From assembly GCA_903864435.1 (NCBI GenBank), contig CAIPFY010000209.1:1-42756 (forward strand): a DNA stretch of 42,756 nt. Direction: 5' to 3'. Source of the DNA: an uncultured Chloroflexota bacterium. Lineage in GTDB: Bacteria > Chloroflexota > Anaerolineae > Aggregatilineales > Phototrophicaceae. Shown here piece by piece: positions 24,204-38,409 of this stretch. The notes beneath the pieces are model-generated. The model had not been told where the DNA came from. It saw only the letters and a list, made by a program, of their open reading frames with translations, and made no database searches. Position 1 is the first letter of the stretch; each line of letters starts with the position of its first letter. Position numbers and translations under genes: made by a program.

Positions 24204-25709
24204 TCACGGGCAGGTATCGCGGCACAATTCGTACACGGTCACGCCGGCAAACTGCGCCACATCCCCCACCGCATATTCGGACAGAAACAGCCCTTCGAGG
24301 ACACCCTTCGGGTCGGTCTGCCATGCGCGAGTCTTGACCAGCCACAACCGACCATCCGGTGCTGCCTGCTGCGCTTCCGCAAAGATGCTGACCGCAGGCC
24401 GCGTGGGGAGATTGGACACGATCAACCGATCACTCCCCAGATACCAGCGCACCGCATTCCCTACCGTAATCGTCACAACGCCATCTTCAGGACGCATCTG
24501 CGCCGCCAGATAACGCGCTGCCCCGCGCACATCCTCTTTGGCGTAACGCGGATCGGTATTCAGGTTGAACAACGACAGCGCATTGGCGATCAACAAGAAC
24601 GACATCAGGGCGATTCCCAACCATCGGGGACGCATCTGCACAGCACCATGCGCGAGCAGGATCAGGAATGGCGGCGCGCAAAACAGAATATAGCGCACAT
24701 TAAAGGTCAGATCGGGGCGAAGCAGCGGAACGCCGACCGCCGCAAAGGGCGGTAGAAATATCCACAGGAACAAAAGGGCGAACTTAGTCCGATCCTGCCG
24801 CCACAGCGCCACCGATCCGGTCACAAACAGCACCAGCACCACCCCGGTCAGCCCGACCAAAATCGGCAAATAGGCGTTCAGGGCTTGCAACGCATCAAGG
24901 CGAATCTCGTTCACCGAAGGCCCTATCGAATACCCGCTGGCGAAAGTGAAAAAGGCATACGGGAAGCCGAGCAAGATATTGGCGCGTTCGGTTCCGATTC
25001 GCTTGGCAGGCGTGTTCACCAGCACATACAGCCACGGCAGATAGCCCATAGCGATCACGGCATTTGCCCGGAACCACTGGCGAAAATACTTGCGCTGGCA
25101 GATCAGATAGTGTAGCACCAGCAGCCCCAGCATCATCACAGCATACAAATGGGTATAGAGCGCGAACAGACTGGTGAGTACAAAAACTCCCCAGCGGCGG
25201 CGGGTGGGGCGCTCCAACACTGCCCCATAGGTATAGGCCACCAGCAGCGTAGATAACACCTGCTGGCTGTACATCCGCATATCCTGCGCGTGCCACACCA
25301 ACGCCGCCGACAGGCCGACTAGCAGCGCCGCCATCAGCGCGGTTTTTAGCCCCAACAAGCGGCGGGACAGGCTAAACACGACCGCCACGCTCAACATATC
25401 CTGCAACACAGTGGGGAAGCGCAGAATAAACTCCGACCGCCCCACTTGAAGTACAAGGCTCATCAGCGCGTAGTAAGCCGGCGGGTGCGTATCCCAATCC
25501 AACAGGTTGCGTGCATAACGAATCGTCTCGATCTCGTCATACCAAAAGCTCTGAGCATCCAAACGGAATAGGCGAACGGCGAACGCCAGTAGCAGCATGA
25601 GCGTCACGCTTACATACACCCACATGTGAACGCTTGGTTTAGAGAGTGATGATCGGGCAGCACTCATTAGCGGGCGCTGTGCCGCGCCTGCCTGCCGGGG
25701 TAAATTCAT
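24204..25709 (-). CDS. GT39/ArnT-like membrane glycosyltransferase (GT-C fold)
   Basis: A 501-residue multi-pass protein with roughly ten or more hydrophobic segments. After the first helix comes FWYDEIETIRYA with the acidic pair Asp58-Glu59, the catalytic feature of GT-C enzymes such as PMT/ArnT, followed by DTHPPAYYALM. Such enzymes use polyprenyl-phosphate sugars as donors on the outer face of the membrane. It has a soluble C-terminal part (about 390-501). The start codon overlaps the stop of the sugar transferase gene (ATGA), so the pair likely makes or attaches one surface glycan. Acceptor and donor are unknown. Confidence 0.82.
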   Translation of the reverse strand: MNLPRQAGAAQRPLMSAARSSLSKPSVHMWVYVSVTLMLLLAFAVRLFRLDAQSFWYDEIETIRYARNLLDWDTHPPAYYALMSLVLQVGRSEFILRFPTVLQDMLSVAVVFSLSRRLLGLKTALMAALLVGLSAALVWHAQDMRMYSQQVLSTLLVAYTYGAVLERPTRRRWGVFVLTSLFALYTHLYAVMMLGLLVLHYLICQRKYFRQWFRANAVIAMGYLPWLYVLVNTPAKRIGTERANILLGFPYAFFTFASGYSIGPSVNEIRLDALQALNAYLPILVGLTGVVLVLFVTGSVALWRQDRTKFALLFLWIFLPPFAAVGVPLLRPDLTFNVRYILFCAPPFLILLAHGAVQMRPRWLGIALMSFLLIANALSLFNLNTDPRYAKEDVRGAARYLAAQMRPEDGVVTITVGNAVRWYLGSDRLIVSNLPTRPAVSIFAEAQQAAPDGRLWLVKTRAWQTDPKGVLEGLFLSEYAVGDVAQFAGVTVYELCRDTCP

Positions 25710-26992
25710 TTGGCACCGCGTCCAACCAGAACCGCCGGCACAGTCAAAAACAGTATCTTCAAATCCATCCAGATGGATTTGCGCTTCACGTATTCCACAT
25801 CCAGTTCTACCATCTGATCCAGCGTCCCACGCCCGCGCAAATTAATCTGCCACCAGCCTGTAATGCCGGGAACGGCATCCAACCGCTGATAATGTTCAGA
25901 CTGATAAACCTCGGTTTCATAGACAGGAACCGGACGCGGCCCCACCAGACTCATATCGCCTTTCAGCACGTTCAACAGTTGGGGCAGCTCATCCAGACTG
26001 GTCGCCCGCAAAATGCGCCCGACGCGGGTCACACGCGGGTCGTGCTTGGGCTTGACCACCTTTTCCTTATCACTTCCATCGGTGAGCGCACCACTCGCCC
26101 AATTCTGCACCCACTGTTTATGCGCCTGATCGTTGGCCTGCGGGTTATGGTACATCGTGCGGAACTTGTACATCGTAAACTGGGTCGTCACCAGAATAGG
26201 CGCCTGACCGGACAGCACAAAGATGCGTCGTCCTGCACGATTCTGGCGGTAAATCACAGGCCCCGGCGAATCGAGGCGGACGATTAAAGCCACAATAAGC
26301 AGCACCGGAGAAACAAGAATCAGCGCGAACAGAGACAGGAAAATATCCATCTGTCGCTTAATCAGGTTATACAGCGGATTTTCGCGCACTTTGACGAGTG
26401 ACTGCGGCACCCAATGCTGATGATTCGCCCGCCGCCCCAGCGAACCGATCAGGAGCAGCAGAATCTTCATATCCAGTCTGAATGAGTAGTTGCGGATGTA
26501 ATACAAATCGGCCTCGAACATGGCGGTGCGCGTCCCAATATCCCCGCGAGTCACCTGCCACCACCCCAGAATGCCCGGACGCATATCGAATCGCGCCAAA
26601 TAAAGATCGGGGATCGGAACATCGTCCAGCGTTTCAGGGCGAATCGGGCGCGGGCCGATGAGCGACATATCGCCGCGCAGCACATTCACAAATTCCGGCA
26701 AGCTATCCAGACTGAATTTTTGCAGGAGATACCCCACCCGCGTAATCCGTTGGTCGAGCAAGCGCGGCACGTTCGGGTCAGCATCCGCCGCCGTGCGAAA
26801 ATGGAACAGATCGAATTTTTGGATTGAAGCCTTCAAATCACCATCGGGGCAGGTTCGTTTGCCGTAACGGGTTTCCCGTACATAAATCGGTAATCCAGAT
26901 TCCATCCAGACCAAAAAGGTAATCAACAACAAAAGAGGACTCAGAAGGATGAGAATGGCGGACGCAATAATCAAGTCCGACAACCTTTTCAC
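25706..26992 (-). CDS. Tandem-domain sugar-phosphate transferase (two monotopic PGT domains, first one degenerate)
   Basis: A 428-residue protein beginning with GTG, made of two bacterial sugar transferase (WbaP/PglC-type) domains in a row. Domain 1 (about 1-195) has a membrane helix at 7-30, FHFRT, FSLDSLPEFVNVLRGDMSLI, GPRP and GILGWWQV. Domain 2 (about 210-428) has a helix at 218-240, DSPGPVIYRQNRAGRR, YKFRTMY, TSLDELPQLLNVLKGDMSLV, GPRP and GITGWWQI. The catalytic Asp-Glu dyad is intact only in domain 2 (Asp334-Glu335); domain 1 has Asp96-Ser97 and a degraded substrate loop. Domain 2 should move a sugar phosphate from a nucleotide sugar to polyprenyl phosphate, starting glycan assembly. 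Domain 1 is probably structural. It is coupled to the GT39-like gene. Confidence 0.88.
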   Translation of the reverse strand: MKRLSDLIIASAILILLSPLLLLITFLVWMESGLPIYVRETRYGKRTCPDGDLKASIQKFDLFHFRTAADADPNVPRLLDQRITRVGYLLQKFSLDSLPEFVNVLRGDMSLIGPRPIRPETLDDVPIPDLYLARFDMRPGILGWWQVTRGDIGTRTAMFEADLYYIRNYSFRLDMKILLLLIGSLGRRANHQHWVPQSLVKVRENPLYNLIKRQMDIFLSLFALILVSPVLLIVALIVRLDSPGPVIYRQNRAGRRIFVLSGQAPILVTTQFTMYKFRTMYHNPQANDQAHKQWVQNWASGALTDGSDKEKVVKPKHDPRVTRVGRILRATSLDELPQLLNVLKGDMSLVGPRPVPVYETEVYQSEHYQRLDAVPGITGWWQINLRGRGTLDQMVELDVEYVKRKSIWMDLKILFLTVPAVLVGRGAK

Positions 26993-27317: not shown

Positions 27318-28223
27318 TTAGCGGCGCACCGAACTCGCAATACGCCGGTAGGTGTGGCGAGCGCCGCGCAGCGCCATCGAAAAAGCCATGACGTTCTCGG
27401 CGGGGGGCATTCCCGATAATCCGGCTTCATCCAACCGGAACGCATCAGCGCCTAAGTGCTTCCCGGTCAGAGCAAGATCGTGCATCACGGCGGACGGCGC
27501 ACCTTCGACCGATCCGGTCACGAACAGCCACGCCAATCGGCGCTGCTGATGCACCACATCTACCAACGCCGCCGCTTTATCGGCTTGCCAACCCTGCTTA
27601 CTTCCCGGCATCGGCAACCCCACCCCGTCACAACCGGCATCGAGGAGTGCTTTGATTTCATCTGCGTACACGCGAAGGCTTTCGGAATCACGCGGGGCGG
27701 GGTTGGAAAACGTTGGCACGCCCACCACGAGGATATGATCCTGCCACATCTGCTTAATTTGTCCGGCAACCACCGCCTGTAACGCAGGTGTGCCACCCTG
27801 TCGGGGTCGGGAGTACAAAAAGAGGATTTGAGCGCCCTGTGCCACAATTTCGGACACGCTGGCATCACTCACCACGCGCCCGCCCAGCAGTTCGGCGCTG
27901 CGAGCGTCCGCGCTTATCATATTCACGCCAATCGGACGCCCTAGCATACGCCGGTACTGGAACAGGGGGCGGTCACTTAACAGCGCAGAGTCTACACCCG
28001 TGATGCGCGGCATAAACGGGTCGTACTGATCCAGCACCACGATATCCGCACCCATCGCCGAAACCAGTTCGCCCTGAGATATTCCCTCTACAGGAGGCTC
28101 GGCGGAGCAAATCACCTCCGCCGCCAATGTGCGTCCTTCAGCCAACCGGATCGATTCAGCCAGTTCATCAGCCGTCATCAGCTCAAAATCACTGGCAACC
28201 GCGTCCAGAAGCCGCTTGACCAT
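27318..28223 (-). CDS. DUF7916-like TIM-barrel protein
   Basis: A 301-residue cytoplasmic protein. The start KRLLDAVASDFELMTADELA, followed by IRLAEGRTLAAEVI, then GADIVVLDQYD, GRPIGVNM and CDGVGLPMPGSKQGW fit, from memory, a family once labelled haloacid dehalogenase-like and now DUF7916. It appears TIM-barrel-like by its repeated strand motifs. The reaction is unknown. It is the last gene of the nucleoside operon, 3 bases after the BtpA/SgcQ gene, and the two barrels may act on the same or successive intermediates. I see no catalytic residues that I can name. Confidence 0.72.
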   Translation of the reverse strand: MVKRLLDAVASDFELMTADELAESIRLAEGRTLAAEVICSAEPPVEGISQGELVSAMGADIVVLDQYDPFMPRITGVDSALLSDRPLFQYRRMLGRPIGVNMISADARSAELLGGRVVSDASVSEIVAQGAQILFLYSRPRQGGTPALQAVVAGQIKQMWQDHILVVGVPTFSNPAPRDSESLRVYADEIKALLDAGCDGVGLPMPGSKQGWQADKAAALVDVVHQQRRLAWLFVTGSVEGAPSAVMHDLALTGKHLGADAFRLDEAGLSGMPPAENVMAFSMALRGARHTYRRIASSVRR

Positions 28224-28226
28224 CGT

Positions 28227-29021
28227 TTATTTCCCCCGTGCAGCCCGCATCAACGCAGCAGTGCGTTCACGCGAAACCGGATTCGTCACCTTACCATCTT
28301 GTTTTAGAGCAGAACCCACAATTGCGCCATCTGCCGTTCGCAGCATATCCACCACCGTGTCTACAGTCGTGCCGCTGCCGACAATCACGGGCAAGCGCGA
28401 ATGCGCCTTCACCGCCGCCACGTCATCTAGCGGGGTGGCACTGCCTGTCGCCGCGCCGGTCACAATCAGCGCATCTGCGCCCGCCGCCTGCGCATCCTTC
28501 GCCGAAGCGGTCAAAGGCTGCGGGGTGATATTGGTCGTGTATTTCGTCTGCACATCCGCCCACAGTTGAACGCTGCGTGCGCCCAACGCGGCGCGGTAAC
28601 GGGTGATCTGCGGCGCACAGGGTTCCACCACGCCCATCGCGCTAATCACGCGATCCACAAACACTTCAACCCGCACAAATGCCGCACGGCAAGCATGTGC
28701 GATGGCAATCTCGGCCTGCCACGCATTGAACTGCACATTCACGCCCACCGGAATGCTCACCGAACGCACCACATCGCGGGTGATGGCGGCCATCAGCGCA
28801 GCCTCCGCCGCAGTTGGTTCACCGACCATGAACGGCTCATCATTGAAGTTCTCGACGATGAGCGCATCAGCGCCAGATTCAGCCAATGCCAGCGCATCAG
28901 CCAGCGCCCGTTCGTAGATGGCGTCCACATTGCCGGCAAACGCGGGAGCGCCCGGCAGCGCCAGTAAATGAACCATCCCGATAATCGGGCGTTCTACCGT
29001 AAATAGTCCTTGAAAGCTCAT
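28227..29021 (-). CDS. BtpA/SgcQ-family TIM-barrel protein
   Basis: A 264-residue protein with the family start IIGMVHLLALPGAP, then GADALIVENFNDEPF, VGVNVQFNAWQAEIAIAHA, FVRVEVFVD, VQLWADVQTKY and the phosphate-binding-type end PVIVGSGTTVDTVVDML. BtpA was tied to photosystem I stability in cyanobacteria, but most relatives sit in sugar or nucleoside catabolic operons with unknown reactions. The C-terminal GSG loop suggests a phosphorylated ligand. It overlaps the aldehyde dehydrogenase gene by 4 bases. Confidence 0.85.
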   Translation of the reverse strand: MSFQGLFTVERPIIGMVHLLALPGAPAFAGNVDAIYERALADALALAESGADALIVENFNDEPFMVGEPTAAEAALMAAITRDVVRSVSIPVGVNVQFNAWQAEIAIAHACRAAFVRVEVFVDRVISAMGVVEPCAPQITRYRAALGARSVQLWADVQTKYTTNITPQPLTASAKDAQAAGADALIVTGAATGSATPLDDVAAVKAHSRLPVIVGSGTTVDTVVDMLRTADGAIVGSALKQDGKVTNPVSRERTAALMRAARGK

Positions 29022-30493
29022 ATCGTACTCCGATACCCCATGCGGATATGCTTGGTTTCCAGATAGCTGTCCAATCCCGGTTCGCCCAGTTCACGCCCCA
29101 CGCCCGACATTTTCATCCCGCCAAACGGCCCGCGAATGTCGGTGATGTCGTTCACATTGATGCCCACACCGCCGCTGCGGAGCGCCTTTGCCGCATGAAA
29201 AGCGGTATCCAGATCACGAGTGTACACATAACTGGCGAGTCCATACGGGGTGGCATTCGCCAGTTGGAATGCTTCGGCAGCCGTCGAAAACGGCACAATC
29301 GGCGCAACCGGGCCGAAAGTTTCCTCGCGCATCACCAGCATATCGGGCTGCACATCCACCAGCACCGTCGGGCTATAGAAATACCCCTGCGGGTCATACG
29401 GTGCGCCTTCCGGCACAGCGCCCCCCACCAGCACCCGTGCGCCATACTGCACCGCGTCGCTCACCTGCACGCGCACCTTTTCGACAGCCGCCGCATTAAT
29501 CATCGGCCCCATATCGGCCTGCGGTTGCTGCAATCCATCTGCCGCCACGCTCAACCGTCCGGCAATCTCCACAAACTGCTCGACAAAAGCATCAAACACC
29601 GGGGCTTGCACAAAAATCCGGTTCACGCTGATACAAATCTGTCCTGTATGCGAATAACAGCGCCGCAGCGCACCGCGCACCGCCGCACCCACGTCGGCAT
29701 CAGCAAAGACCACGCAAGGGGCGCTCCCGCCCAATTCCAGCGTGGTGTGCTTCATAGTCAGCGCCGCCGTCTGCGCGATCTTGATACCCGTCGCGGTGGA
29801 GCCGGTAAACGCCACTTTGCTCACCGCCGGATGAGCCACCAGCGCCGCGCCCACCGCGCCTGCGCCAGTCACCACGTTCAGCACACCTTCTGGAATACCC
29901 GCGTCCAGAAAGGCTTGCACAAATTTCAATGCGCTCAGGGGCGCTTCCTCGGAAGGCTTAATGACGAACGAGCAGCCCGCCGCCAGACCGGGGCCAATTT
30001 TCCACGCCAGCAAATCCACCGGGAAATTCCAGGGCAGGATAGCAGCCACCACGCCCAAAGGCTGCTTCCACACAAAGCTGTGAGTAGCGCCCATATCGCC
30101 CGCGAAATGCGTCCCCTGAATCCGCCGCGCTTCATCGGCGTAGAAGTCAATCACATCGGCGCTGTACTGCACCTCTTTGTACGAATCGTTCAACGGCTTA
30201 CCGTTTTCTTCGGTCATCAGACGGGCGCAGGACTCCAGATATTGCGACCGAAAAATGTCCATCGCACGGTGCATGAGCGCGGCGCGTTCGCGTCCGCTGG
30301 TGGCCGCCCAGCGCGGAAAAGCGGCTTCGGCGGCACGCACCGCCGCATCCACGTCGTCCCCGGAGGCCACCGAAATCGCGCCCATCGGACGCCCGTAAGC
30401 CGGGTTAATCACCGCGAGGGTTTCACCGCTGGCATTCGCCTGCCAGCGTCCGTTCAGCAGCAGTGTTTCGGTCGTTGCGGTCATTTCGGTCAT
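29018..30493 (-). CDS. NAD(P)-dependent aldehyde dehydrogenase
   Basis: A 491-residue member of the aldehyde dehydrogenase superfamily, oxidising an aldehyde to the acid. Key residues are all present: Asn156 in LPWNFP, Lys179 in IKPSEEAP, Glu253 in LELGGSAP and nucleophile Cys287 in HTGQICISVNR. The cofactor segment FTGSTATG is intact. Closest classes by look are succinate-semialdehyde or lactaldehyde-type enzymes, but the substrate is not decided by sequence. It is coupled by 4-base overlaps to the phosphorylase before it and the BtpA/SgcQ gene after it, so its aldehyde is probably produced in this pathway. Confidence 0.92.
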   Translation of the reverse strand: MTEMTATTETLLLNGRWQANASGETLAVINPAYGRPMGAISVASGDDVDAAVRAAEAAFPRWAATSGRERAALMHRAMDIFRSQYLESCARLMTEENGKPLNDSYKEVQYSADVIDFYADEARRIQGTHFAGDMGATHSFVWKQPLGVVAAILPWNFPVDLLAWKIGPGLAAGCSFVIKPSEEAPLSALKFVQAFLDAGIPEGVLNVVTGAGAVGAALVAHPAVSKVAFTGSTATGIKIAQTAALTMKHTTLELGGSAPCVVFADADVGAAVRGALRRCYSHTGQICISVNRIFVQAPVFDAFVEQFVEIAGRLSVAADGLQQPQADMGPMINAAAVEKVRVQVSDAVQYGARVLVGGAVPEGAPYDPQGYFYSPTVLVDVQPDMLVMREETFGPVAPIVPFSTAAEAFQLANATPYGLASYVYTRDLDTAFHAAKALRSGGVGINVNDITDIRGPFGGMKMSGVGRELGEPGLDSYLETKHIRMGYRSTI

Positions 30494-31221
30494 GATGGAC
30501 TCCAGTGTGCCATGCCATCAAATACCGTCTGGATCAAAGCCACTTCGCCAGCATCCCGTTCGGCGGCGTCTATAATCTCGAACGGGTCTGCATTATTGGT
30601 AATCAGGCACAGCGAAGCCGAAGCCAATCGCAAACGCGCACTCAAGATGTAAAGCAGCGAGGTTTCCATATCGAGCGCGACCACCCCTGCCGATTGCAGC
30701 AGGTCAATATCCGGCAGGCCGCGCCCCACCAATGCCGGAGCCATGCTGGGGTAAAACGCATCATAGGTCGCCGTCATCCCCGCCCGCGCTGCATGGTTGC
30801 TCACCCGCGCACTCTCCAGCAAGTGCTGCGAAAGCGTCCAATCCGGCACCGCTGGAAACGGCATTCCCAGATATGCGGGGGACGTGCCTTCAAACCGCGC
30901 CGCGCCTGTCGAAAGCACGAACATCCCCATCGGCAGCCCGATGCCCATCATCGTTCCCACGCGCACAATGGCTTTCGCGCCCAGTTGTGCCGCTTCTTCG
31001 ATGGCGATAGCCGCTGATGGCGCACCAATCCCGCACGAAATCGCGGTAAAAGGCACCCCCTGTACCGTTCCATTCGCCACAAGGAACTCGCGGTTACGGG
31101 CGATGATCTGCCCGCCTTCCATCATGCCGGCGATACGTTCAATTCGCGCCGGATCGCCAGTCATCAACACACGCTCCGCAATCGAGCCGGGGGGGCAATG
31201 CAAATATAAAGAACGACTCAT
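30490..31221 (-). CDS. Nucleoside phosphorylase (uridine phosphorylase-like)
   Basis: A 243-residue enzyme of the PNP/UDP phosphorylase family, which splits a nucleoside with phosphate into base and pentose-1-phosphate. The start SLYLHCPPGSIAERVLMTGD holds the family's GD pair (22-23, phosphate site). SCGIGAPSAAIAIEEAA and IVRVGT (Arg87) fit the phosphate-binding part, and VALDMETSLLYILSA matches the ribose-binding Met-Glu region. I chose ATG 31221 because it overlaps the kinase stop as ATGA and begins where the family begins; upstream residues to 31338 lie in the kinase gene. The base is unknown. Confidence 0.87.
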   Translation of the reverse strand: MSRSLYLHCPPGSIAERVLMTGDPARIERIAGMMEGGQIIARNREFLVANGTVQGVPFTAISCGIGAPSAAIAIEEAAQLGAKAIVRVGTMMGIGLPMGMFVLSTGAARFEGTSPAYLGMPFPAVPDWTLSQHLLESARVSNHAARAGMTATYDAFYPSMAPALVGRGLPDIDLLQSAGVVALDMETSLLYILSARLRLASASLCLITNNADPFEIIDAAERDAGEVALIQTVFDGMAHWSPS

Positions 31222-32144
31222 GAAGCACCAAAACTCTCTTGATAACGGGCTAAAAGACGATTCCATGTCGGCAGGTTGGTCTGGCAGCCGACAGCTTCCA
31301 CCACGAAAGCCGCCGCCACCGCGCCCAACCGTCCACAAGTTAGCACATCATATTCACGCCAGTATCCAGCCAGAAACGCGGCGGTATAAGCATCCCCCGC
31401 GCCCGTCGTATCCACCACCCGGCAGCGCACAGCGGGAATTTGCGCCGCGCCGCCCTGCGAGAAGACCTGACTTCCGTCCGCGCCTGCCGTCAACACGATC
31501 ACCTGCGGCCCCATCGTGAGCAGGTCGGTCAATGCGCTCAAGCCCATCCCCTCGACAAGGTATTTCGCTTCCAGATGATTGCAAAAGATCACACGGCTGG
31601 CCGCCGCAAATACTTCGAGCGATTCGCGGGGATAGGCGGCAATATCAGCCTTTAGTTGCCAGATGATCGGAATGTTTGCGTGAGCCACCTGTTCGACAAA
31701 AGCGCGGTTGTACGGCGCATACCCCACCGTCACCAGCCCCCACCGAACCGCTTCCAGACCTTGTAGAACGAGATCACCCTGCCAGCAGTCCGTTGCACCG
31801 GGGTGGAAAAAATTCACCATCTCGCCATCGGGCGTCCGAAACAAATAACTGGCGGGGCTGCTTTGCCCTTCCAGACGCAGCACATTCCGGCAGTCCACCC
31901 CTTCCGCCTGCAAATAGCGGGTGTAACGCTCACCGGCCTCGTCCCCGCCTAGCACCATCGCCACGCCGGTCTTGAAGCCGAATCGCTGCAAGGCCACAGC
32001 CACATTCGCGCCACAGCCGCCATACGCCGCCGCCAGCGGGTTGATCGGCTCGCCTAGCAAAGCCGTTTCGCCCCGCGATGGGATGCGTGATACCGGCACA
32101 ATATGGTCGAGGCTGGGATAACCGGTTGCCAGCAAATCAAGCAT
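31218..32144 (-). CDS. PfkB-family sugar or nucleoside kinase
   Basis: A 308-residue ribokinase-family kinase. The N-terminal YGGCGANVAVALQRFG (41-56) is the sugar-binding GG motif and VDTTGAGDAYTAAFLAG carries catalytic Asp251. In this setting it may phosphorylate the imported nucleoside or the pentose released by the phosphorylase. It overlaps the cysteine hydrolase gene by 8 bases and the phosphorylase by 4, so all three are translationally coupled. It is not closely similar by eye to the other PfkB gene at 17046. Confidence 0.88.
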   Translation of the reverse strand: MLDLLATGYPSLDHIVPVSRIPSRGETALLGEPINPLAAAYGGCGANVAVALQRFGFKTGVAMVLGGDEAGERYTRYLQAEGVDCRNVLRLEGQSSPASYLFRTPDGEMVNFFHPGATDCWQGDLVLQGLEAVRWGLVTVGYAPYNRAFVEQVAHANIPIIWQLKADIAAYPRESLEVFAAASRVIFCNHLEAKYLVEGMGLSALTDLLTMGPQVIVLTAGADGSQVFSQGGAAQIPAVRCRVVDTTGAGDAYTAAFLAGYWREYDVLTCGRLGAVAAAFVVEAVGCQTNLPTWNRLLARYQESFGAS

Positions 32145-32718
32145 GATGACTCAATTCTTCGCGCTCGGCATCCAGCAAAGCAAGCGCCTCGCTTGTCGGG
32201 ATCACCCGCCCCATGTACTTGCCAATATCTTCCAGATTGGCCTCATGCAGATGCGCCTTATCCGTCGCCACGCACTCACGCGGCACCACCACTTCGTAGT
32301 TGCGCTCGAACGCATCGGTGGCGGTAGCCCGGATGCACACATTGGTCTTGGTGCCGGTCAGGAACACGCGGTCAATCCGGTTGTCGCGCAGGATCAAATC
32401 CAAATCCGTCCCGACGAACGCGCTATAACGGCGCTTAACCACATGGTATTCGTCCGGTGAAGGCTGCAAACCGGGGTCAATCTGCACCCCGATGGAACCT
32501 GCCGTCCCGTGCGGACGCACATGCTCCAGCTCCCAATCCGGCTTGCCAACACGATGCTGGTCAACCACCCAGATGATCGGAATCCCCCGCGCCCGTGCTT
32601 CCGCCACGAAATCCGCGATCACCGGAACGAGTGCCGCCGAAACCGGATTCGCCACTTTGCCGTGCTGCAAATCGGTAAAGTCGCGGATCATGTCAATCAC
32701 GAGTACCGCTGATTTCAT
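32137..32718 (-). CDS. Isochorismatase-like cysteine hydrolase (nicotinamidase-type fold)
   Basis: A 193-residue member of the cysteine hydrolase superfamily that includes nicotinamidase, isochorismatase and N-carbamoylsarcosine amidase. The catalytic triad is visible: Asp9 (LVIDMIRDF), Lys95 (VVKRRYSAF) and Cys128 (GTKTNVCIRATATDAF), with the cis-peptide stretch just before the Cys. Metal-binding His residues of true nicotinamidases (DxHxxxxH) are not obvious; the loop reads VDQHRVGKPDWELEHV. It probably hydrolyses an amide or carbamoyl group on the base part of the imported compound. It lies 1 base after the permease gene. Confidence 0.88.
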   Translation of the reverse strand: MKSAVLVIDMIRDFTDLQHGKVANPVSAALVPVIADFVAEARARGIPIIWVVDQHRVGKPDWELEHVRPHGTAGSIGVQIDPGLQPSPDEYHVVKRRYSAFVGTDLDLILRDNRIDRVFLTGTKTNVCIRATATDAFERNYEVVVPRECVATDKAHLHEANLEDIGKYMGRVIPTSEALALLDAEREELSHHA

Positions 32719-32719
32719 C

Positions 32720-33628
32720 TTACCAACCCTTTCGCCACTCTTTCCGAGCCGAGATGATCGCCAGCACCACCACCACCATCACATACGGCAACATCTGGAA
32801 AAACTGCGGCGGCGTGCTGCTGATTAGTTGAAGGCGGAATTGCAGCGCCTCGAACATACCGAATAGCAGGCAGGCCAGCGCCGCCCAGCGCGGACGCCCC
32901 GCAGCAAAGTACACTGCGGCCAGCGCGATAAACCCGCGCCCCGCTGTCATATCCTCGCGGAACAACGCCAGATCACCCACCGCCAGATGAGCGCCCGCCA
33001 GCCCGCACAGGCCGCCACCTAGCATCAACGCAAGGTACTGCCGCCGCCGCACCGGAATCCCCACCGAACGCGCCGCTTCCTCGTTCTGCCCGATGGCGCG
33101 AATGTGCGTACCGGGAATGCTGCGATACAGGAACAGCGCGGTCAGCGGCACCATCAACCATGACACATACACCAGCGGCGACTGCGAAAACACCAGCGAC
33201 CCGATCACGGGAATATCGCTCAACACAGGGATATTGACCGTAGGCAAGCTCTCCAGCGACGCAGGCGATAGCGTGCCGCTGGTATCGAACAGCACCTTGA
33301 GCAGGTAGGCCGTGCTGCCAGAGGCCAGTAAGTTGATCGCCAGCCCGGACACGATCAGATTCGCTTTGAAGCGCGTCACCACCAGCGTGAACAGCGCCGC
33401 CAGCAGCATCCCGACGATGATTGCCGCCAGCACGCCCAACCATGTAGAACCGAGCCAGAAGCCTACCACGACGGTAGTAAATGCCCCCGCCAACATCAGC
33501 CCTTCCAGCCCGATATTCACCTGCCCCACTTGCAAACTGAGCAGACCCGCCATTGCAGCCAGCAGCAGCGGCGTTGATAAACGCAGCGTGGAGGCCACAA
33601 TGTTCAGAATGAGTTCACCGGTTTCCAC
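32720..33628 (-). CDS. Nucleoside/simple-sugar ABC transporter permease 2 (BPD_transp_2)
   Basis: A 302-residue multi-pass permease. LLSLQVGQVNIGLEGLMLAG near the start and the later loop GTHIRAIGQNEEAARSVGIPV are typical of the second permease of BMP-dependent nucleoside importers (YufQ/NupQ/RnsD type). It forms the channel with the permease encoded just upstream (3-base gap). About eight hydrophobic segments are visible. Confidence 0.9.
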   Translation of the reverse strand: METGELILNIVASTLRLSTPLLLAAMAGLLSLQVGQVNIGLEGLMLAGAFTTVVVGFWLGSTWLGVLAAIIVGMLLAALFTLVVTRFKANLIVSGLAINLLASGSTAYLLKVLFDTSGTLSPASLESLPTVNIPVLSDIPVIGSLVFSQSPLVYVSWLMVPLTALFLYRSIPGTHIRAIGQNEEAARSVGIPVRRRQYLALMLGGGLCGLAGAHLAVGDLALFREDMTAGRGFIALAAVYFAAGRPRWAALACLLFGMFEALQFRLQLISSTPPQFFQMLPYVMVVVVLAIISARKEWRKGW

Positions 33629-33631
33629 AGA

Positions 33632-34702
33632 TTACCTTTCTGAACCACTCGCAGCCATTTGGGTTTTGCTGCCACCACGCCAATACTTCCACACCTTCGG
33701 CACGGTCACTTCCACCGCCACAAAGAAAATCAGCAGCGCGGTGACAATATCAATCAAGTCACGCGGAATCTGCGTGAACATCTCCATTGTCGAAGCGCCA
33801 CTACGCAACGCGCCGAGGAACAACGACGCCAGAAGAACGCCCCCCGGCGTATTGCGCCCCAGCAGCGTAATCACAATCCCATCGAACCCTAACCCCTGCG
33901 AAAACCCGCCCACAAAGCGGTAATGCACGCCCAGAGCTTGCCCCGCGCCCGCCAAACCGCCGATCAACCCGCTGAGGAACATCACCAGCAGAATCGTGCG
34001 GGCGACAGGCATCCCCATCCAGCGGGCAAAAGTGGCGTTCGTGCCCAAAGTCTGAATTTCGTAGCCCAGTGCCGTGCGCCGCAGCAAGAAGGCCACCAGC
34101 GCCAGCACCACCAGCGCCAGCAAGAAGCTGATGTTCAACTGGGAACGCTCCATGAGGCGCGGCAACTGCGCCTGCGGAGCCACTTCAGCGGACATGGCGT
34201 TCGCCATGCCGGGGACGAAAAACGGCCCCGTCACCAGATAATTCGTGAACAGGATCGCCACATAATTCAGCATAATCGTGGTCACGATCTCATCCACCCG
34301 CAACCGTGCTTTCAGATAACCGGGGATTAAGCCCCACAGCCCGCCCACCAGCCCACCCGCAAAAAACGCCAGCGGAATGAGCAGGATACCGGGCATATCC
34401 ACAAAGGTGAAGCCCACCCACGCAGCGGCGAACGCCCCCACATAGAGCGAACCTTCTACGCCAACGTTGAAGATACCCGCCTTAAACGCGATCAATGTCG
34501 CCAAGCCGGTGAAGATCAGCGGGGTAGCCGCCAGCAGCGTATTCGCCAGCGCACGCGGGCTGCCCACTGCCGAATTCCATAGCACCTGATACGCGCCCAT
34601 CGCGTCTTTGCCGGAAAGCTGCATAATCAGCCCGCCCACCAGCAGCGCCAGCAGCACCGTCACCAGTGTGCGCGAAAAAGACGCTACAAAAGAGGTTTTC
34701 AT
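33632..34702 (-). CDS. Nucleoside/simple-sugar ABC transporter permease 1 (BPD_transp_2)
   Basis: A 356-residue permease with helices from residue 10 on. It carries LANTLLAATPLIFTGLATLI, FKAGIFNVGVEGSLYVG and the coupling loop GYEIQTLGTNATFARWMGMPV, as in YufP/NupP/RnsC-type permeases. The start overlaps the ATPase stop by 4 bases. Together with the second permease it forms the membrane path for a nucleoside or related compound. Confidence 0.9.
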   Translation of the reverse strand: MKTSFVASFSRTLVTVLLALLVGGLIMQLSGKDAMGAYQVLWNSAVGSPRALANTLLAATPLIFTGLATLIAFKAGIFNVGVEGSLYVGAFAAAWVGFTFVDMPGILLIPLAFFAGGLVGGLWGLIPGYLKARLRVDEIVTTIMLNYVAILFTNYLVTGPFFVPGMANAMSAEVAPQAQLPRLMERSQLNISFLLALVVLALVAFLLRRTALGYEIQTLGTNATFARWMGMPVARTILLVMFLSGLIGGLAGAGQALGVHYRFVGGFSQGLGFDGIVITLLGRNTPGGVLLASLFLGALRSGASTMEMFTQIPRDLIDIVTALLIFFVAVEVTVPKVWKYWRGGSKTQMAASGSER

Positions 34703-36219
34703 CGGGCTTGCTCACTTTCCACTTTGCCAGCCATCGCCAGCCCGATTTGTTCGCGGGTGGCTTCCTCGCGGGGGAAAATGCGCAAAATGCGCCCCTCGAA
34801 TAACACCGCGATCCGGTCACTCAAGGCCAGCAGTTCATCCAAGTCCGCTGAAATCAACAGCACGCCGCAACCCTGTTCGCGCAGATTAAGCAGTTGTTCA
34901 TGCACAAATCCGGTAGCGCCAATATCCAGCCCTCGTGTGGGCTGCGACGCGATTAGCACGGCTGGCGGGGTGGCGAGTTCGCGGGCGATCACCACTTTCT
35001 GCGCGTTCCCGCCTGAAAGTGTGCTGACCGCCACGCCTTCATTCGGAGCGCGAATGTCAAAGCGTTCCATCAGAGCACGGGCAGCCGTTCGCATCCGTTC
35101 CAGACGCAGCACGCCCCCTGTGTTCAGCGGCGAACGGTCATACTCCCCGCTGGCGAGGTTCTCCCAGATGCGCATCGGGCGGCTCAAGCCTTCGCGGTTG
35201 CGATCTTCCGGGATCAGCGCCAGACCCCGCTTGCGCCGGTCACGGGTTGAAAGCCCATGCAGATTGGTTCCATCCAGCAAAATATCGCCCTTCGCATCGG
35301 GGCGCAGGCCGATCAAGGCTTCGACCAGTCCGGTCTGCCCGTTGCCTTCCATGCCGGCGATTCCCAGAATTTCGCCCGATTTCACGCTGAAATTCACGGT
35401 CGTGTTTTGCAGACGGGCATCACCCGTTTGCAGGTCGCGCACAATCAACCGATCGCGGCTCTCTGCGGCGGAAGCCTTGCGTGCCAGCGGCGGTTCGAGT
35501 TCATGCCCCACCATCAGGCGGGCGATTTCAGCAGGAGTCACACGGGCGGTTTCGACTGTCCCCACCACCTGCCCGCGCCGCAGCACCGTTGCCCGATCAC
35601 ACAACGTCATGATTTCATCCAGCTTGTGCGTGATGAAAATGGCGGTACAGCCCTCTGCTACCAGACGGCGCAGCACCTCAAATAGACTCACCACTTCCTG
35701 CGGCGTGAGTACCGCCGAAGGTTCATCAAGAATGAGCAGGCGTGCGTTCCGGTACAACATCTTCAAGATTTCAACGCGCTGTTGCAGCCCGACCGACAAA
35801 TCGCTCACCAGCGCATCGGGATTCACATGCAGGCCGAACTGATCCGAAAGCGCCCGCACCCGTTCGCGCATCACACCCCTGTCCGCGAATAATCCCCGCC
35901 GTGTCTCGCGCCCCAACGCGATATTCTCGGCAACCGTCAGCGTGGGAACAAGCTGAAAATGCTGGTGTACCATCCCGATACCCAGTTGAATCGCGGCCTG
36001 TGGATGAGCGATATGCGCCCGCTGTCCGCCCAACCAGATTTCGCCAGAGTCAGGCTGCTCCATGCCATATAGAATTTTCATCAACGTGGATTTGCCCGCG
36101 CCGTTCTCTCCAACAAGGCCGTGAATCTCTCCGGCCTCCACATTGAAGTGAATATCGTCATTGGCGAGAACGCCGCCGGGGTAGGTTTTGCGGATAGCAC
36201 GCACTTCGAGATAGGGCAT
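34699..36219 (-). CDS. Nucleoside/simple-sugar ABC transporter ATPase (two ABC domains)
   Basis: A 506-residue double ATPase of the RbsA/YufO class. The N half has Walker A GENGAGKST at 37-45, signature LSVGLQQRVEIL and Walker B LLILDEPSAVLT. The C half has a degenerate Walker A (GMEGNGQTG), signature LSGGNAQKVVIARELA and Walker B VLIASQPTRGLD, in which the usual Asp is Ser. An inactive second site is normal for this class, though the Ser is worth noting. It powers import by the two permeases that follow. A GC hairpin separates it from the binding-protein gene. Confidence 0.92.
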   Translation of the reverse strand: MPYLEVRAIRKTYPGGVLANDDIHFNVEAGEIHGLVGENGAGKSTLMKILYGMEQPDSGEIWLGGQRAHIAHPQAAIQLGIGMVHQHFQLVPTLTVAENIALGRETRRGLFADRGVMRERVRALSDQFGLHVNPDALVSDLSVGLQQRVEILKMLYRNARLLILDEPSAVLTPQEVVSLFEVLRRLVAEGCTAIFITHKLDEIMTLCDRATVLRRGQVVGTVETARVTPAEIARLMVGHELEPPLARKASAAESRDRLIVRDLQTGDARLQNTTVNFSVKSGEILGIAGMEGNGQTGLVEALIGLRPDAKGDILLDGTNLHGLSTRDRRKRGLALIPEDRNREGLSRPMRIWENLASGEYDRSPLNTGGVLRLERMRTAARALMERFDIRAPNEGVAVSTLSGGNAQKVVIARELATPPAVLIASQPTRGLDIGATGFVHEQLLNLREQGCGVLLISADLDELLALSDRIAVLFEGRILRIFPREEATREQIGLAMAGKVESEQAR

Positions 36220-36237
36220 GATCGTTCCTATCGTGAT

Positions 36238-36270
36238 CGGGTGCGGGCATCAAAAGAGCGCCCGCACCCG
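36238..36270 (-). terminator. Hairpin after the BMP binding-protein gene (attenuator or mRNA stabiliser)
   Basis: A perfect 11-bp stem CGGGTGCGGGC (36238-36248) with GCCCGCACCCG (36260-36270) and an 11-base loop. It lies 15 bases after the binding-protein stop and about 18 bases before the ATPase start. There is no T run on the minus strand, so partial termination or protection of the upstream message is likely. It has the same layout as the hairpin at 11289. Confidence 0.7.
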
Positions 36271-36285
36271 CAAAAAACATGAACC

Positions 36286-37377
36286 CTACTTCATCGAATC
36301 CGCAAGTTCCTGAATGCCCGCGCAGGTGCGGTTGGCAAACAGGGCGGTACGCTGTTCTTCAGTGATGGTACGGGTATCAATCACGCTCACCGACCCATCA
36401 ATGATACCGGCTTTCAGTTCTGCCACTTTGTCCATATAGGCGCGGGGAATCAGGTGACGGGTGTAGGTCATTTCGCTCAGACACACGCCGTTCTTGTCCA
36501 GACCGTACTGCGCCACCTTACCACCTTGCAGTTCGCCATTCACCAACTGCGCGATGAGATCATACACAGCCACATCCACGCGCTTCAGCATGCTGGTCAG
36601 CACGAAGCCCGGAGCCAGATAGTCCTGGTCGCCATCCACGCCCAATGCCCAGAAGCCGCCATCCTTCGCCGCTTCGATCACGCCCTGACCCGTGCCGCCA
36701 GCGACCTGATACACCACGTCAGCGCCCTGCTCGTTCATGGCCTTCGCCAGTTCGCTGCCGGTCGCCGGATCGCCAAAGCCGTTCGAGTAAGCGAACAGCA
36801 CATTGATGTCCGGGCTGATGGCGCATGCGCCTTGCAGATAGCCATCGAGGAACACATCAATACCACTGGACTGCACGCCGCCGATCACACCGATCACATT
36901 GTCGGGGTTGGTGTTCGGCACGTTGCTGTCGGTCGTCACCTGCGCCGCCAGAGCGCCCGCGAGGTACGAACCGGTATGCTCATCAAACAGCACCGAAACC
37001 ACGTTCGGGGCATCCACCTGTACGTTCACAATGGCGAACAGGGTGTCGGGATAATCCGGGGCAACACGCGCCAGCGGATCAAAATGGCTGAATTCCAGCG
37101 TAATGACCAGATCAAAGCCGGCTTCGGCGGCGGTACGGAGCAGTTGTTCGCCCTCGCCCACCGGATCGGAAGACTCGATCGGGGTCACTTCCACACCCAA
37201 CTCTGCCGCCGCCAGCGTCAAACCGGCAAACGCCGAGTCATTGTAGGAACGATCACCCAGACCGCCCTGCGCGATAATCAGTGCAACGCGCTTGGCATCC
37301 TGCGCGTGAACGATGCTGGCGCCCATCACAACCAAAGCCAGCGTCAACAAAAGCACAACAGACAACCGTTTAGACAT
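36286..37377 (-). CDS. BMP-family ABC transporter substrate-binding protein (nucleoside-type)
   Basis: A 363-residue extracytoplasmic binding protein of the BMP/PnrA/Med family, which binds purine nucleosides and related molecules. The start at ATG 37377 has GAGGAG 7 bases upstream. A Sec signal peptide ends at IVHA before QDAKR, with no lipobox Cys. Family motifs: GGLGDRSYNDSAFAGL, FDLVITLEFSH, NVVSVLFDEHTGSYLAGALA, VIGVIGGVQSSGIDVFLDGY, DVVYQVAGGTGQGVIEAA and ALGVDGDQDYL. It is the first structural gene after the GntR regulator and probably sets what the whole operon takes up. Confidence 0.92.
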   Translation of the reverse strand: MSKRLSVVLLLTLALVVMGASIVHAQDAKRVALIIAQGGLGDRSYNDSAFAGLTLAAAELGVEVTPIESSDPVGEGEQLLRTAAEAGFDLVITLEFSHFDPLARVAPDYPDTLFAIVNVQVDAPNVVSVLFDEHTGSYLAGALAAQVTTDSNVPNTNPDNVIGVIGGVQSSGIDVFLDGYLQGACAISPDINVLFAYSNGFGDPATGSELAKAMNEQGADVVYQVAGGTGQGVIEAAKDGGFWALGVDGDQDYLAPGFVLTSMLKRVDVAVYDLIAQLVNGELQGGKVAQYGLDKNGVCLSEMTYTRHLIPRAYMDKVAELKAGIIDGSVSVIDTRTITEEQRTALFANRTCAGIQELADSMK

Positions 37378-37504
37378 GCGACATCTCCTCAAAAGAAATA
37401 CCTGATCGAACAAAATATGAGGGTTTAGGCAGCTGTTGAGATGCGATAGACCTCCTCCTCGTTTTCATAAATAGCCCCTACCGAGCGAAACAATACGGCA
37501 GCAC

Positions 37505-38242
37505 TCACCGCCGCAGACGAATGCGATACTGGTACAGATCGGCGCGATAAAGCGCCACCACATACTCGACAAAATTCCCCTGTTGATCCCACGAGAAGCG
37601 CGTCGTCCGCAGCATCGGGTCGCCGGGGTTGATGTGCAAGAGCGCCGCTTCATCGGGGGATGCGCTCACCGCATCAATCGCGTCTTCGGCTTCGGTCAAT
37701 GACACGCCGCGCTGCTGCAATAGCGCATACAGGGATTTCGTGTGGCGCAGGTCATCCAGCGTCACCGGAACCTGATAGAGATACGAATCATGAATGCCCA
37801 CCGAATCGCCGTTGGCGAAGCGTACCCGCTTCAGCCGCAACAGGCTGGTTTCAGGCGGCAGATCAATGCGGGCGATCACATCCGGGGGCGGCGGTGCGGT
37901 TTCCAGCAAAAGCATAACCGACGACGGATTCAACTGGCGGGACTGCATATCTTCGGAAAACCCGACCATTCGATCCAGCGAATGCCCCATGCGCCGCGCC
38001 GAGATGAACGTGCCGCGCCCGCGCTCCCGATGCACATACCCGCCGCTGACCAATTCACCCATCGCCTGCCGGACGGTCATTGTGCTAATGCTGTACTGGC
38101 GAGCCAGTTCGTTTTCGGAAGGCAGCGAATCGCCCGGTTTCAGCAGGCCGGACTCGATCAAACCAGCAATGGCGCGTTGTAGCTGGAAATAAATCGGCAC
38201 GGCGCTGGTTTTATCAATCGCCAGACTCAAAGCATGATTCAT
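37505..38242 (-). CDS. GntR-family regulator, HutC/UTRA type
   Basis: A 245-residue regulator with a winged helix (about 15-82: VPIYFQLQRAIAGLIESGLL, PSENELARQYSISTMTVRQA, ERGRGTFIS) and a UTRA effector domain (about 100-240). HutC-type regulators are usually repressors released by a pathway intermediate, often a phosphorylated sugar or nucleoside breakdown product. I chose ATG 38242: the upstream residues to 38317 overlap a promoter and a palindrome and are not family-like. GGAAA lies upstream. It heads the nucleoside operon and probably regulates itself and the genes below. Confidence 0.88.
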   Translation of the reverse strand: MNHALSLAIDKTSAVPIYFQLQRAIAGLIESGLLKPGDSLPSENELARQYSISTMTVRQAMGELVSGGYVHRERGRGTFISARRMGHSLDRMVGFSEDMQSRQLNPSSVMLLLETAPPPPDVIARIDLPPETSLLRLKRVRFANGDSVGIHDSYLYQVPVTLDDLRHTKSLYALLQQRGVSLTEAEDAIDAVSASPDEAALLHINPGDPMLRTTRFSWDQQGNFVEYVVALYRADLYQYRIRLRR

Positions 38243-38268: not shown

Positions 38269-38282
38269 GTTCTCTAGAGAAC
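38269..38282. promoter_or_regulatory. Perfect palindromic operator GTTCTCTAGAGAAC (GntR site)
   Basis: A 14-bp perfect palindrome with a CTAG centre, overlapping the -10 and start region of the GntR gene's promoter. HutC/DasR-type GntR regulators bind palindromes with a similar CTAG core, so autoregulation is likely. I found no second copy before the binding-protein gene. Confidence 0.65.
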
Positions 38283-38362: not shown

Positions 38363-38391
38363 TTGACACAATCCCCCAATCGGCATATTAT
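38363..38391 (+). promoter_or_regulatory. Strong sigma70-type promoter of the TetR gene
   Basis: TTGACA (38363-38368) and TATTAT (38386-38391) are separated by 17 bases, nearly full consensus. A palindromic operator follows directly after the -10, where a bound repressor would block initiation. Confidence 0.8.
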
Positions 38392-38409
38392 AAGTGAACG
38401 TGTTCACTT
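38392..38409. promoter_or_regulatory. TetR operator copy 1 (AAGTGAAC-gt-GTTCACTT)
   Basis: Two perfect 8-bp inverted arms separated by GT, lying between the -10 and the start of the TetR gene. The same 17 bases TGAACGTGTTCACTTTT recur before the next gene (39114-39130). Confidence 0.8.

Follow-up and report, generated by a model that had tools for sequence, protein, structure and literature searches.

Which compound is taken up and broken down by an operon that joins a BMP/PnrA-type importer, a nucleoside phosphorylase, and a PfkB kinase to two TIM barrel proteins, one of the BtpA/SgcQ family and one related to DUF7916? The question is raised by contig CAIPFY010000209.1 (assembly GCA_903864435.1) of an uncultured Chloroflexota bacterium, of which a stretch of 42,756 nucleotides (the window) was analyzed. 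The operon consists of eleven genes at 27318-38242 on the minus strand. A previous, sequence-only reading had named a family for each of these genes and had proposed a single uptake and breakdown operon for a nucleoside-type substrate, probably with its own regulator. Pfam and NCBIfam scans returned the same families, with all eleven frames open (Pfam covered 9 of the 11 genes; for the ATPase and permease 1, NCBIfam alone was used), and the conservation of gene order and of a palindrome supports the proposal. The operon is real, conserved, and probably singly regulated, and it would represent a new form of nucleoside catabolism. It very probably imports nucleosides and degrades their sugar with the help of the two barrels. 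More specifically, we tentatively propose, at a little less than an even chance, a nucleoside-ribose catabolic operon in which import would be followed by formation of ribose 1,5-bisphosphate (R15P), isomerization and C-C cleavage by the barrels, and oxidation of the resulting aldehyde.

Conservation of the operon in other genomes

A DUF7916 profile scan of genome contigs confirmed 124 places, and 80 loci were kept for comparison. Only four of these (L012 to L015, all from Anaerolineae, with L014 from Aggregatilineales) contained a match to the phosphorylase; the other 76 had no match to the phosphorylase, binding protein, hydrolase, or BtpA. L012 and L014 carry all eleven genes in the same order as the window. 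L013 holds ten genes together, with its BtpA orthologue (76% identity) on another contig, while L015 is a 3.7-kb contig fragment with the phosphorylase, aldehyde dehydrogenase (ALDH), and DUF7916 genes. Neither L013 nor L015 has a BtpA gene between the ALDH and DUF7916 genes. Across the four relatives, identity to the window is 73-82% for the permeases, 76-79% for the binding protein, and 65-72% for the ATPase; among the enzymes it is 73-79% for the hydrolase, 69-76% for the ALDH, 74-76% for BtpA, and 54-76% for the phosphorylase, with 54-67% for DUF7916, 58-62% for the kinase, and 56-64% for the regulator. Because the same gene order persists at 54-82% protein identity in other genomes, chance is not a serious alternative; this conserved order, together with the palindrome shared before gntR, argues for one function for the whole operon.

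The barrels and the hydrolase had been expected to accompany this importer elsewhere. The hydrolase and DUF7916 do so in all three near-complete relatives, although the presence of DUF7916 is by construction, as it was the query with which L012 to L015 were retrieved. For BtpA, the expectation holds in two of the three and fails in L013. The hydrolase and BtpA also adjoin such importer genes in L132, a more distant locus found with BtpA and hence independent of the DUF7916 query. DUF7916 was detected in 12 of 396 genomes of the class, with only the window's own copy above 44% identity, and two further genomes of the window's genus had no DUF7916 match. Four genes flanking the operon were unmatched in the L012 to L015 stretches, of which L012 and L014 have nearly no upstream sequence. 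The operon is thus rare, as would be expected of a unit that is mobile or frequently lost.

Importer, phosphorylase, and kinase

The BMP/PnrA-type ABC importer set is complete, comprising a Bmp binding protein, a two-domain ATPase, and two permeases. The PDB chain nearest to the binding protein is 7x0r ("Lbp"); 6yab and 2fqw, which we take to be nucleoside binders, score lower. A GVDxDQ stretch of the binding protein is common to 7x0r and 6yab.

The phosphorylase is well above the PF01048 cutoff (107.6 versus 25.1 bits) and below the NCBIfam uridine phosphorylase equivalog cutoff (138.2 of 280.3 bits). In an alignment of eight copies (A5; five of this operon and three of L132), residues G22, D23, P24, R26, R44, R87, D184, and E186, which we assume to serve phosphate and ribose, are kept in all eight. 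The presumed uracil contacts of uridine phosphorylase (Q166, R168, and R223 in Escherichia coli numbering) are replaced: GQER of 5lhv corresponds to SMA and a gap, and NRT corresponds to NAD. Therefore, the base accepted by the window's phosphorylase is open. At the position of the last uracil-contact arginine (alignment position 211), the three L132 phosphorylases have R, K, and R. Residue 8 (codon 31198-31200), which presumably corresponds to the histidine that binds O5', is H in the window; the other copies have K (four), R (two), or N (one), which hints that some copies may accept a substrate charged at the 5' position.

Against PDB sequences, the PfkB kinase scores 127.4 bits with MJ0406 (2c49), 86 bits with 3b1r/3b1n ("Ribokinase, putative"), and 72.6 bits with ribokinase 1gqt. 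Nucleoside kinase activity of broad range is attributed to MJ0406 (Hansen et al., cited in PMC8551123 and PMC10248530), and a Pyrobaculum PfkB homologue is active on pyrimidine nucleosides and ribose 1-phosphate (R1P) according to the title of a work cited in PMC10248530. The window's kinase reaches 85.3 of 330 bits with the R1P kinase model NF053626 and 81.3 of 450 bits with the nucleoside kinase model NF041164. With MJ0406 as the nearest PDB relative, R1P or nucleoside kinase chemistry is likely, the exact member being unproven. Family membership and retained residues support the roles assigned to importer, phosphorylase, and kinase, and the previous assignment of the pentose to the phosphorylase and the PfkB kinase is likewise supported.

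An importer, a phosphorylase, and a kinase also make up a normal salvage set. Ordinary nucleoside salvage would recover the base and R1P, with the barrels, hydrolase, and dehydrogenase loosely associated in regulatory or detoxifying roles, and the unlinked BtpA of L013 would suit such a loose association. We nonetheless regard salvage as distinctly unlikely, since the ALDH stays with the set in all four relatives found, behind one shared palindrome, and since an analogous trio of two barrels and an aldehyde enzyme occurs in two phyla (see below).

Hydrolase and aldehyde dehydrogenase

The Cys-Asp-Lys triad of the isochorismatase-fold hydrolase is present in all five copies aligned (A6), and D53, H55, and H70 are present in four; the copy without this D-H-H motif is that of L132. 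The D-x-H plus H motif presumably marks the place of the nicotinamidase metal site. Both features could be accommodated by nicotinamide riboside uptake, a substrate previously offered as an option, in which the phosphorylase would free nicotinamide and the hydrolase would be a nicotinamidase. However, the hydrolase scores 34.8 bits against a cutoff of 174 with the NCBIfam nicotinamidase model PRK11609, which is outscored by the biuret amidohydrolase, PRK11440 hydrolase, and RutB models. With the motif absent in L132, and with the kinase, ALDH, and two barrels superfluous to such a pathway, we consider nicotinamide riboside a highly improbable substrate and abandon the suggestion.

The PDB chain nearest to the ALDH is the succinate-semialdehyde dehydrogenase 3jz4 (406 bits). 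No cutoff was reached among 25 of the 43 NCBIfam models.

The BtpA/SgcQ-family barrel

The BtpA protein lies above the TIGR00259 subfamily cutoff (210.8 versus 153.4 bits). Identity as the BtpA of photosystem I biogenesis was rejected, as the cutoff of the equivalog NF045918 was missed (198.3 of 400 bits). Profile comparison relates the second half of the protein to the phosphate-binding end of TrpA and GGGPS, and G217, G232, and K240 of this end are nearly invariant in 29 sequences. A predicted model, built from 3 sequences with a predicted local distance difference test (pLDDT) score of 74, matches ThiE, TrpA, HisF, TrpC, and others. Fold searches were set aside as a guide to the reaction, as the models of both barrels match various TIM barrels and none decides.

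Among 33 BtpA neighborhoods (Chloroflexota, the Hungatella phylum, and one Raoultella), a same-strand PfkB gene lies within 6 kb in 8, five of them from two Chloroflexota families, and a match to the window's ATPase occurs in 10. In Pfam analysis of chosen neighbors, L191 has PfkB, L192 has PfkB on the other strand, L189 and L190 have FGGY kinases, and L182 has an EIIC component of the phosphotransferase system (PTS). BtpA genes thus appear often to sit with sugar phosphorylation. The family is widespread: of 14 control genomes, 5 had a match (3 of these exceeding the cutoff), as did 83 of 400 Chloroflexota genomes and 17 of 299 Hungatella-phylum genomes. A BtpA scan of viral contigs and a single-protein DUF7916 scan of genome contigs were unproductive. 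The window's genome carries a second, distant BtpA-family gene at G000:C373:80022-80783 (L093, L196; ~30% identity, 122.9 bits). A literature search on the BtpA/SgcQ family found no reaction; among the papers listed, the name by title mostly denotes a Brucella protein or a chemical abbreviation.

The sgc operon of E. coli, whose SgcQ belongs to the BtpA family, resembles the window in placing a BtpA-family protein beside sugar phosphorylation (by a PTS) and a hydrolase. It differs in having a PTS importer and an epimerase, with neither a phosphorylase nor an ALDH. A 2026 study (PMC13343008) describes the substrate and functions of this operon as still to be established.

Another BtpA context is the operon L133:2004-12144 (G019), which encodes GntR, PfkB, BtpA, a PurD-like ligase, an M42 peptidase, and a BMP importer. 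The best model for its PfkB protein is R1P kinase (176 of 330 bits), and the ligase scores 342 bits against a purD domain cutoff of 288. L133 would represent a different BtpA pathway, perhaps acting on ribosylamine-type compounds.

These contexts bear on a further explanation, breakdown of an N-glycosylated amide or urea of the ribosyl-amide type. BtpA would act on a phosphorylated N-glycoside, for example, by an Amadori rearrangement like those of HisA and TrpF, and the hydrolase would open the amide or carbamoyl group. The BtpA neighbors in L133 (PurD-like ATP-grasp ligase, M42 peptidase, BMP importer, and PfkB), L183 (M20 and M28 peptidases), and L191 (an SIS protein) are in keeping with this idea, as are the hydrolase retained in the distant operon L132 (35% identity) and the appearance of TrpF and HisF among the fold neighbors of the BtpA model. 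The sgc operon is reported (PMC13343008) to be induced in nitrogen-containing, slower-growth conditions. On the other hand, the phosphorylase retains nucleoside-type phosphate and ribose residues, the three phosphorylases of L132 suggest variable bases rather than one special amide, and no hydrolase was recognized in the L182 gene run. We judge an amide substrate somewhat unlikely.

The DUF7916-like barrel

PF25509 covers the full length of its model (1-296 of 296) in the last protein of the operon, at 229.6 versus 27 bits. No PDB chain was retrieved with this sequence at E values up to 1, and a literature search for DUF7916 or PF25509 by name found nothing. The predicted model (pLDDT 93.5) matches TIM barrels; among its best 50 matches, many barrels fit, with a query or target TM score of up to ~0.65.

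In 37 ordinary DUF7916 relatives, 83 positions are conserved at ≥90%; at 22 of them, all five operon copies depart from the family residue. Seventeen of these 22 lie at C-terminal strand ends, compared with 12 of the other 61 (Fisher P = 2.5e-6). With the catalytic face defined from the model as the last two strand residues and the next six, a definition set after the pattern had been noticed, 17 of 29 conserved positions on this face are replaced in all five copies, compared with 5 of 54 elsewhere. The residues lost include N65, E103, T137, N139, K170, H172, H263, G265, and D266, for which the operon copies uniformly have D65, I103, Y137, R139, P170, F172, R263, D265, and E266. Such uniformity at all nine positions points to a re-tooled active site and not to decay. 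Judged by these residues, the protein is a diverged subfamily with a re-tooled catalytic face. A protein 44% identical to the window's, encoded at L171:9449-10384 (G415) in another gene context, mixes ordinary and operon-type residues on the catalytic face and keeps K170.

Ordinary DUF7916 proteins share the family assignment, over the cutoff and at full length, and differ in the conserved catalytic-face residues described above; some are encoded in PTS clusters. Their neighbors (77 loci, with two genomes counted twice, as L009/L034 and L011/L049 are the same places) include a PTS EIIC cluster in 14 cases, EIIA in 11, an amidohydrolase in 10, and SIS in 6. In Chloroflexota, the ordinary genes (L009, identical to L034; L011, identical to L049; and L023) lie beside PTS EIIC, glucose-type EIIA, SIS, amidohydrolase, and DUF362; to judge from gene content, these clusters are an uncharacterized PTS pathway. 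Transfer of a function from relatives was rejected, as their neighbors vary and the window copy has lost their conserved residues; the DUF7916 label transfers no function here. Nor do BtpA and DUF7916 form a general pair, a clear BtpA match (E < 1e-20) being present in 4 of 20 ordinary-DUF7916 genomes, with 1 more borderline. Of the previous description of two orphan barrels, the family assignments stand, with the reservations that DUF7916 is represented by a diverged subfamily and that the two families are usually not found together.

A portable core in distant operons

The locus L132 (G290), from the same class and another family, encodes in order an ATPase and permeases, three phosphorylases, PfkB, a TrpA-like barrel, an iron alcohol dehydrogenase (Fe-ADH; 285.6 of 645 bits with PRK15138, its best NCBIfam model), an isochorismatase, and BtpA. 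It ends within the ATPase region, so that no binding protein was seen. L132 resembles the window in its importer genes, phosphorylase, PfkB, isochorismatase, BtpA, and aldehyde enzyme, and differs in having three phosphorylases, a TrpA-like barrel in place of the DUF7916-like one, and Fe-ADH in place of ALDH. In L182 (Hungatella effluvii), PTS genes (sorbose-type EIIC) are followed by BtpA, a TrpA-like barrel, and Fe-ADH; the TrpA-like proteins of L182 and L132 are 35% identical and the Fe-ADHs 51%. No phosphorylase, PfkB, or hydrolase was recognized in the L182 gene run, and an isochorismatase-like gene lies ~8 kb away on the opposite strand. At E values up to 1e-20, the TrpA-like protein was found in 1 of 219 Hungatella-phylum genomes, namely that of L182. 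Its absence from 221 Chloroflexota genomes is uninformative, since G290 was apparently outside the draw.

These clusters suggest a portable core of BtpA, a second phosphate-site barrel, and an aldehyde enzyme in two phyla. TrpA carries out a retro-aldol cleavage that releases glyceraldehyde 3-phosphate. Because the trio in L182 follows PTS genes with no phosphorylase or PfkB recognized, it would act after sugar phosphorylation. That an ALDH in one operon is matched in position by an ADH in the other is most readily explained if the barrels produce an aldehyde. In L132, base splitting appears to be multiplied and sugar handling single, as three phosphorylases and one kinase fit several bases with one common sugar; an "unusual" nucleoside, as once proposed, is not needed. 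The companion proposal, that the barrels act on a sugar phosphate and the dehydrogenase on an aldehyde, is retained as what we infer from the neighbors in L132 and L182.

Proposed route for nucleoside ribose

In the proposed route, the BMP-type ABC importer would bring nucleosides into the cell. The phosphorylase would remove the base and the PfkB kinase would phosphorylate O5, yielding R15P in either order, that is, by an R1P kinase after phosphorolysis or a nucleoside kinase before it. The BtpA and DUF7916-like barrels would jointly isomerize the sugar (bis)phosphate and split it into a triose phosphate plus a two-carbon aldehyde, with no claim as to which does which, and the ALDH would oxidize the aldehyde. 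The cysteine hydrolase would strip the released base, or some other nitrogen-containing fragment, of an amide or carbamoyl group.

Isomerization and cleavage are assigned to the barrels because the usual enzymes do not appear to be available. DeoB (TIGR01696) is over the cutoff in none of six genomes, some of them incomplete, with short, weak matches in four. The IF-2B family (PF01008) has seven proteins in five of the six genomes; all seven score highest as MtnA and reach 146-218 bits with the R15P isomerase model TIGR00511 (cutoff, 314.1). Separately, a second diverged MtnA-like (IF-2B) protein is encoded in the window's genome (L203:1336-2421; G000:C386) and in G402 (L202:1336-2391); both are over the PRK05720 subfamily cutoff and under the MtnA equivalog and R15P isomerase cutoffs.

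The same product logic, a triose phosphate plus an aldehyde, would apply to deoxyribonucleoside catabolism, in which a DeoC-like barrel aldolase would form glyceraldehyde 3-phosphate and acetaldehyde and the ALDH would oxidize the latter; a DeoC/LacD-family gene does lie near one BtpA gene (L191). The lack of a DeoB over the cutoff in the six genomes speaks against this pathway, however, and a kinase acting on deoxyribose 1-phosphate would not give the substrate of DeoC. We regard it as quite improbable.

A literature search for a pathway like the proposed ribose route found PMC9700705 only. According to that paper, halophilic archaea use a phosphorylase, a PfkB R1P kinase, and cleavage to dihydroxyacetone phosphate and glycolaldehyde, which is reduced to ethylene glycol; an isomerase, a phosphatase, and FucA are involved. 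The likenesses to this non-carboxylating pentose bisphosphate pathway are a phosphorylase annotated as uridine phosphorylase, a PfkB kinase, and the predicted end in a triose phosphate plus a C2 aldehyde on which an oxidoreductase acts. Where the archaeal pathway has an R15P isomerase, a HAD ribulose bisphosphate phosphatase, and FucA, the window operon has two TIM barrels; it also includes a BMP importer and a GntR regulator of its own and would oxidize the aldehyde instead of reducing it.

Several observations weigh against the proposed route. The nearest solved relative of the binding protein is 7x0r rather than 6yab or 2fqw; the kinase is below the cutoff of all 23 NCBIfam models that it matched; and the nearest relatives of the ALDH are succinate-semialdehyde and betaine-aldehyde dehydrogenases. 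BtpA lies outside the L013 operon, was not found in G403 (the genome of L015, whose completeness is not given), and has a phosphorylase match in only 1 of its 33 neighborhoods. The trio was seen in two clusters only, with no third in the TrpA-like searches. The hydrolase is not accounted for by the ribose route. The fate of the 5-phosphate is a weak point: as the operon has no phosphatase, R15P cleavage would give glycolaldehyde phosphate, an odd ALDH substrate.

In its boldest form, the proposal would be a bacterial route for nucleoside ribose free of Rubisco and phosphopentomutase, in which BtpA and an interchangeable barrel (TrpA-like or re-tooled DUF7916) isomerize R15P, or a close relative of it, and split the sugar by retro-aldol cleavage into a triose phosphate plus a C2 aldehyde. 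We put this forward as a rather doubtful extension.

Operon layout and regulation

The coordinates of the operon are given in Table 1. The eight junctions from the ATPase gene onward measure -4, 3, 1, -8, -4, -4, -4, and 3 bases, in agreement with the -8 to +3 bases initially noted; the gap between the BMP and ATPase genes is 66 bases. The phosphorylase start was corrected to the ATG at 31221, which forms an ATGA overlap with the kinase stop. For the binding protein, the ATG at 37377, giving 363 amino acids (aa), is the most likely start. The ATG at 38242 is preferred for gntR, as a longer frame from 38317 would cross the palindrome. The last operon gene is followed by 325 bases and then by a same-strand gene at 25706-26992. 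A search of the window for tRNAs was negative, and all Rfam families remained below their gathering scores.

Table 1. Coordinates and supporting matches of the operon features in the window
Feature	Coordinates	Strand	Evidence
GntR/UTRA transcriptional regulator, 245 aa	37505..38242	-	Pfam GntR 67.9 bits, UTRA 108.9 bits; 56-64% identity in L012-L014
GTTCTCTAGAGAAC, perfect palindrome, probable operator	38269..38282	.	26 bases before gntR start
BMP/PnrA-type substrate-binding lipoprotein, 363 aa	36286..37377	-	Pfam Bmp 184.5 bits; PDB relatives 7x0r, 4pev, 6yab, 2fqw
Two-domain ABC ATPase, 506 aa	34699..36219	-	486 of 670 bits (below cutoff) with the best NCBIfam model, "putative B6 ABC transporter ATP-binding protein"
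Permease 1, 356 aa	33632..34702	-	NCBIfam ABC_B6_perm_2 157.5 of 400 bits; 78-81% identity in L012-L014
Permease 2, 302 aa, GTG start	32720..33628	-	Pfam BPD_transp_2 117.7 bits
Isochorismatase-fold cysteine hydrolase, 193 aa; triad D9, K95, C128	32137..32718	-	Pfam Isochorismatase 147.3 bits
PfkB kinase, 308 aa	31218..32144	-	Nearest solved relative MJ0406 (2c49), 127.4 bits
Nucleoside phosphorylase, uridine phosphorylase branch, altered base site, 243 aa	30490..31221	-	Pfam PNP_UDP_1 107.6 bits; nearest PDB 3qpb, 5lhv
Aldehyde dehydrogenase (ALDH), 491 aa	29018..30493	-	Pfam Aldedh 534.3 bits; nearest PDB 3jz4, 406 bits
BtpA/SgcQ-family TIM barrel, 264 aa	28227..29021	-	TIGR00259 210.8 bits vs cutoff 153.4
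Diverged DUF7916 TIM barrel, 301 aa, catalytic face remodeled	27318..28223	-	Pfam 229.6 bits; model pLDDT 93.5

At ≤2 mismatches, GTTCTCTAGAGAAC occurs once in the window versus 0.03 times expected. Its 12-base core, TTCTCTAGAGAA, lies 5' of gntR in all four genomes in which this region is known, exactly in the window's genome (G000), G400, and G401 and with one mismatch in G402. This site is the sole one in G000 and G400 at ≤1 mismatch; G401 has two further one-mismatch sites, G402 has one, and G403 has two. The resulting counts for the five genomes (1, 1, 3, 2, and 2) show no excess over a reversed-pattern control (0, 1, 5, 0, and 3; 9 versus 9), which weighs against a dedicated switch. The palindrome is read as an operator because of its shared place before gntR genes that are 56-64% identical, and not because of these counts. 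The GntR regulator is likely dedicated to the operon, with the palindrome as its predicted operator. The unlinked BtpA gene of the L013 genome was rejected as a second target, as the two other one-mismatch sites there lie on other contigs and the core was not found at ≤2 mismatches in the 20 kb around the gene.

Beyond the palindrome, an inverted repeat, AAGTGAAC-2-GTTCACTT, lies at 38392-38409, before a divergent TetR-like gene at 38423, and is probably the autoregulation site of that gene. A sigma-70-like promoter match at 38363-38391 is directly upstream of the repeat; promoter matches in the region are no more numerous than in shuffled sequences.

Significance

The operon shows a member of the DUF7916 family that is re-tooled on its catalytic face, and it points to a three-gene module present in two phyla. 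Together with L132, it sets BtpA within a short route that likely begins with a nucleoside and likely yields an aldehyde, so that the reaction can be sought. If the proposed route is true, the BtpA/SgcQ family, for which the literature search returned none, would gain a metabolic reaction.

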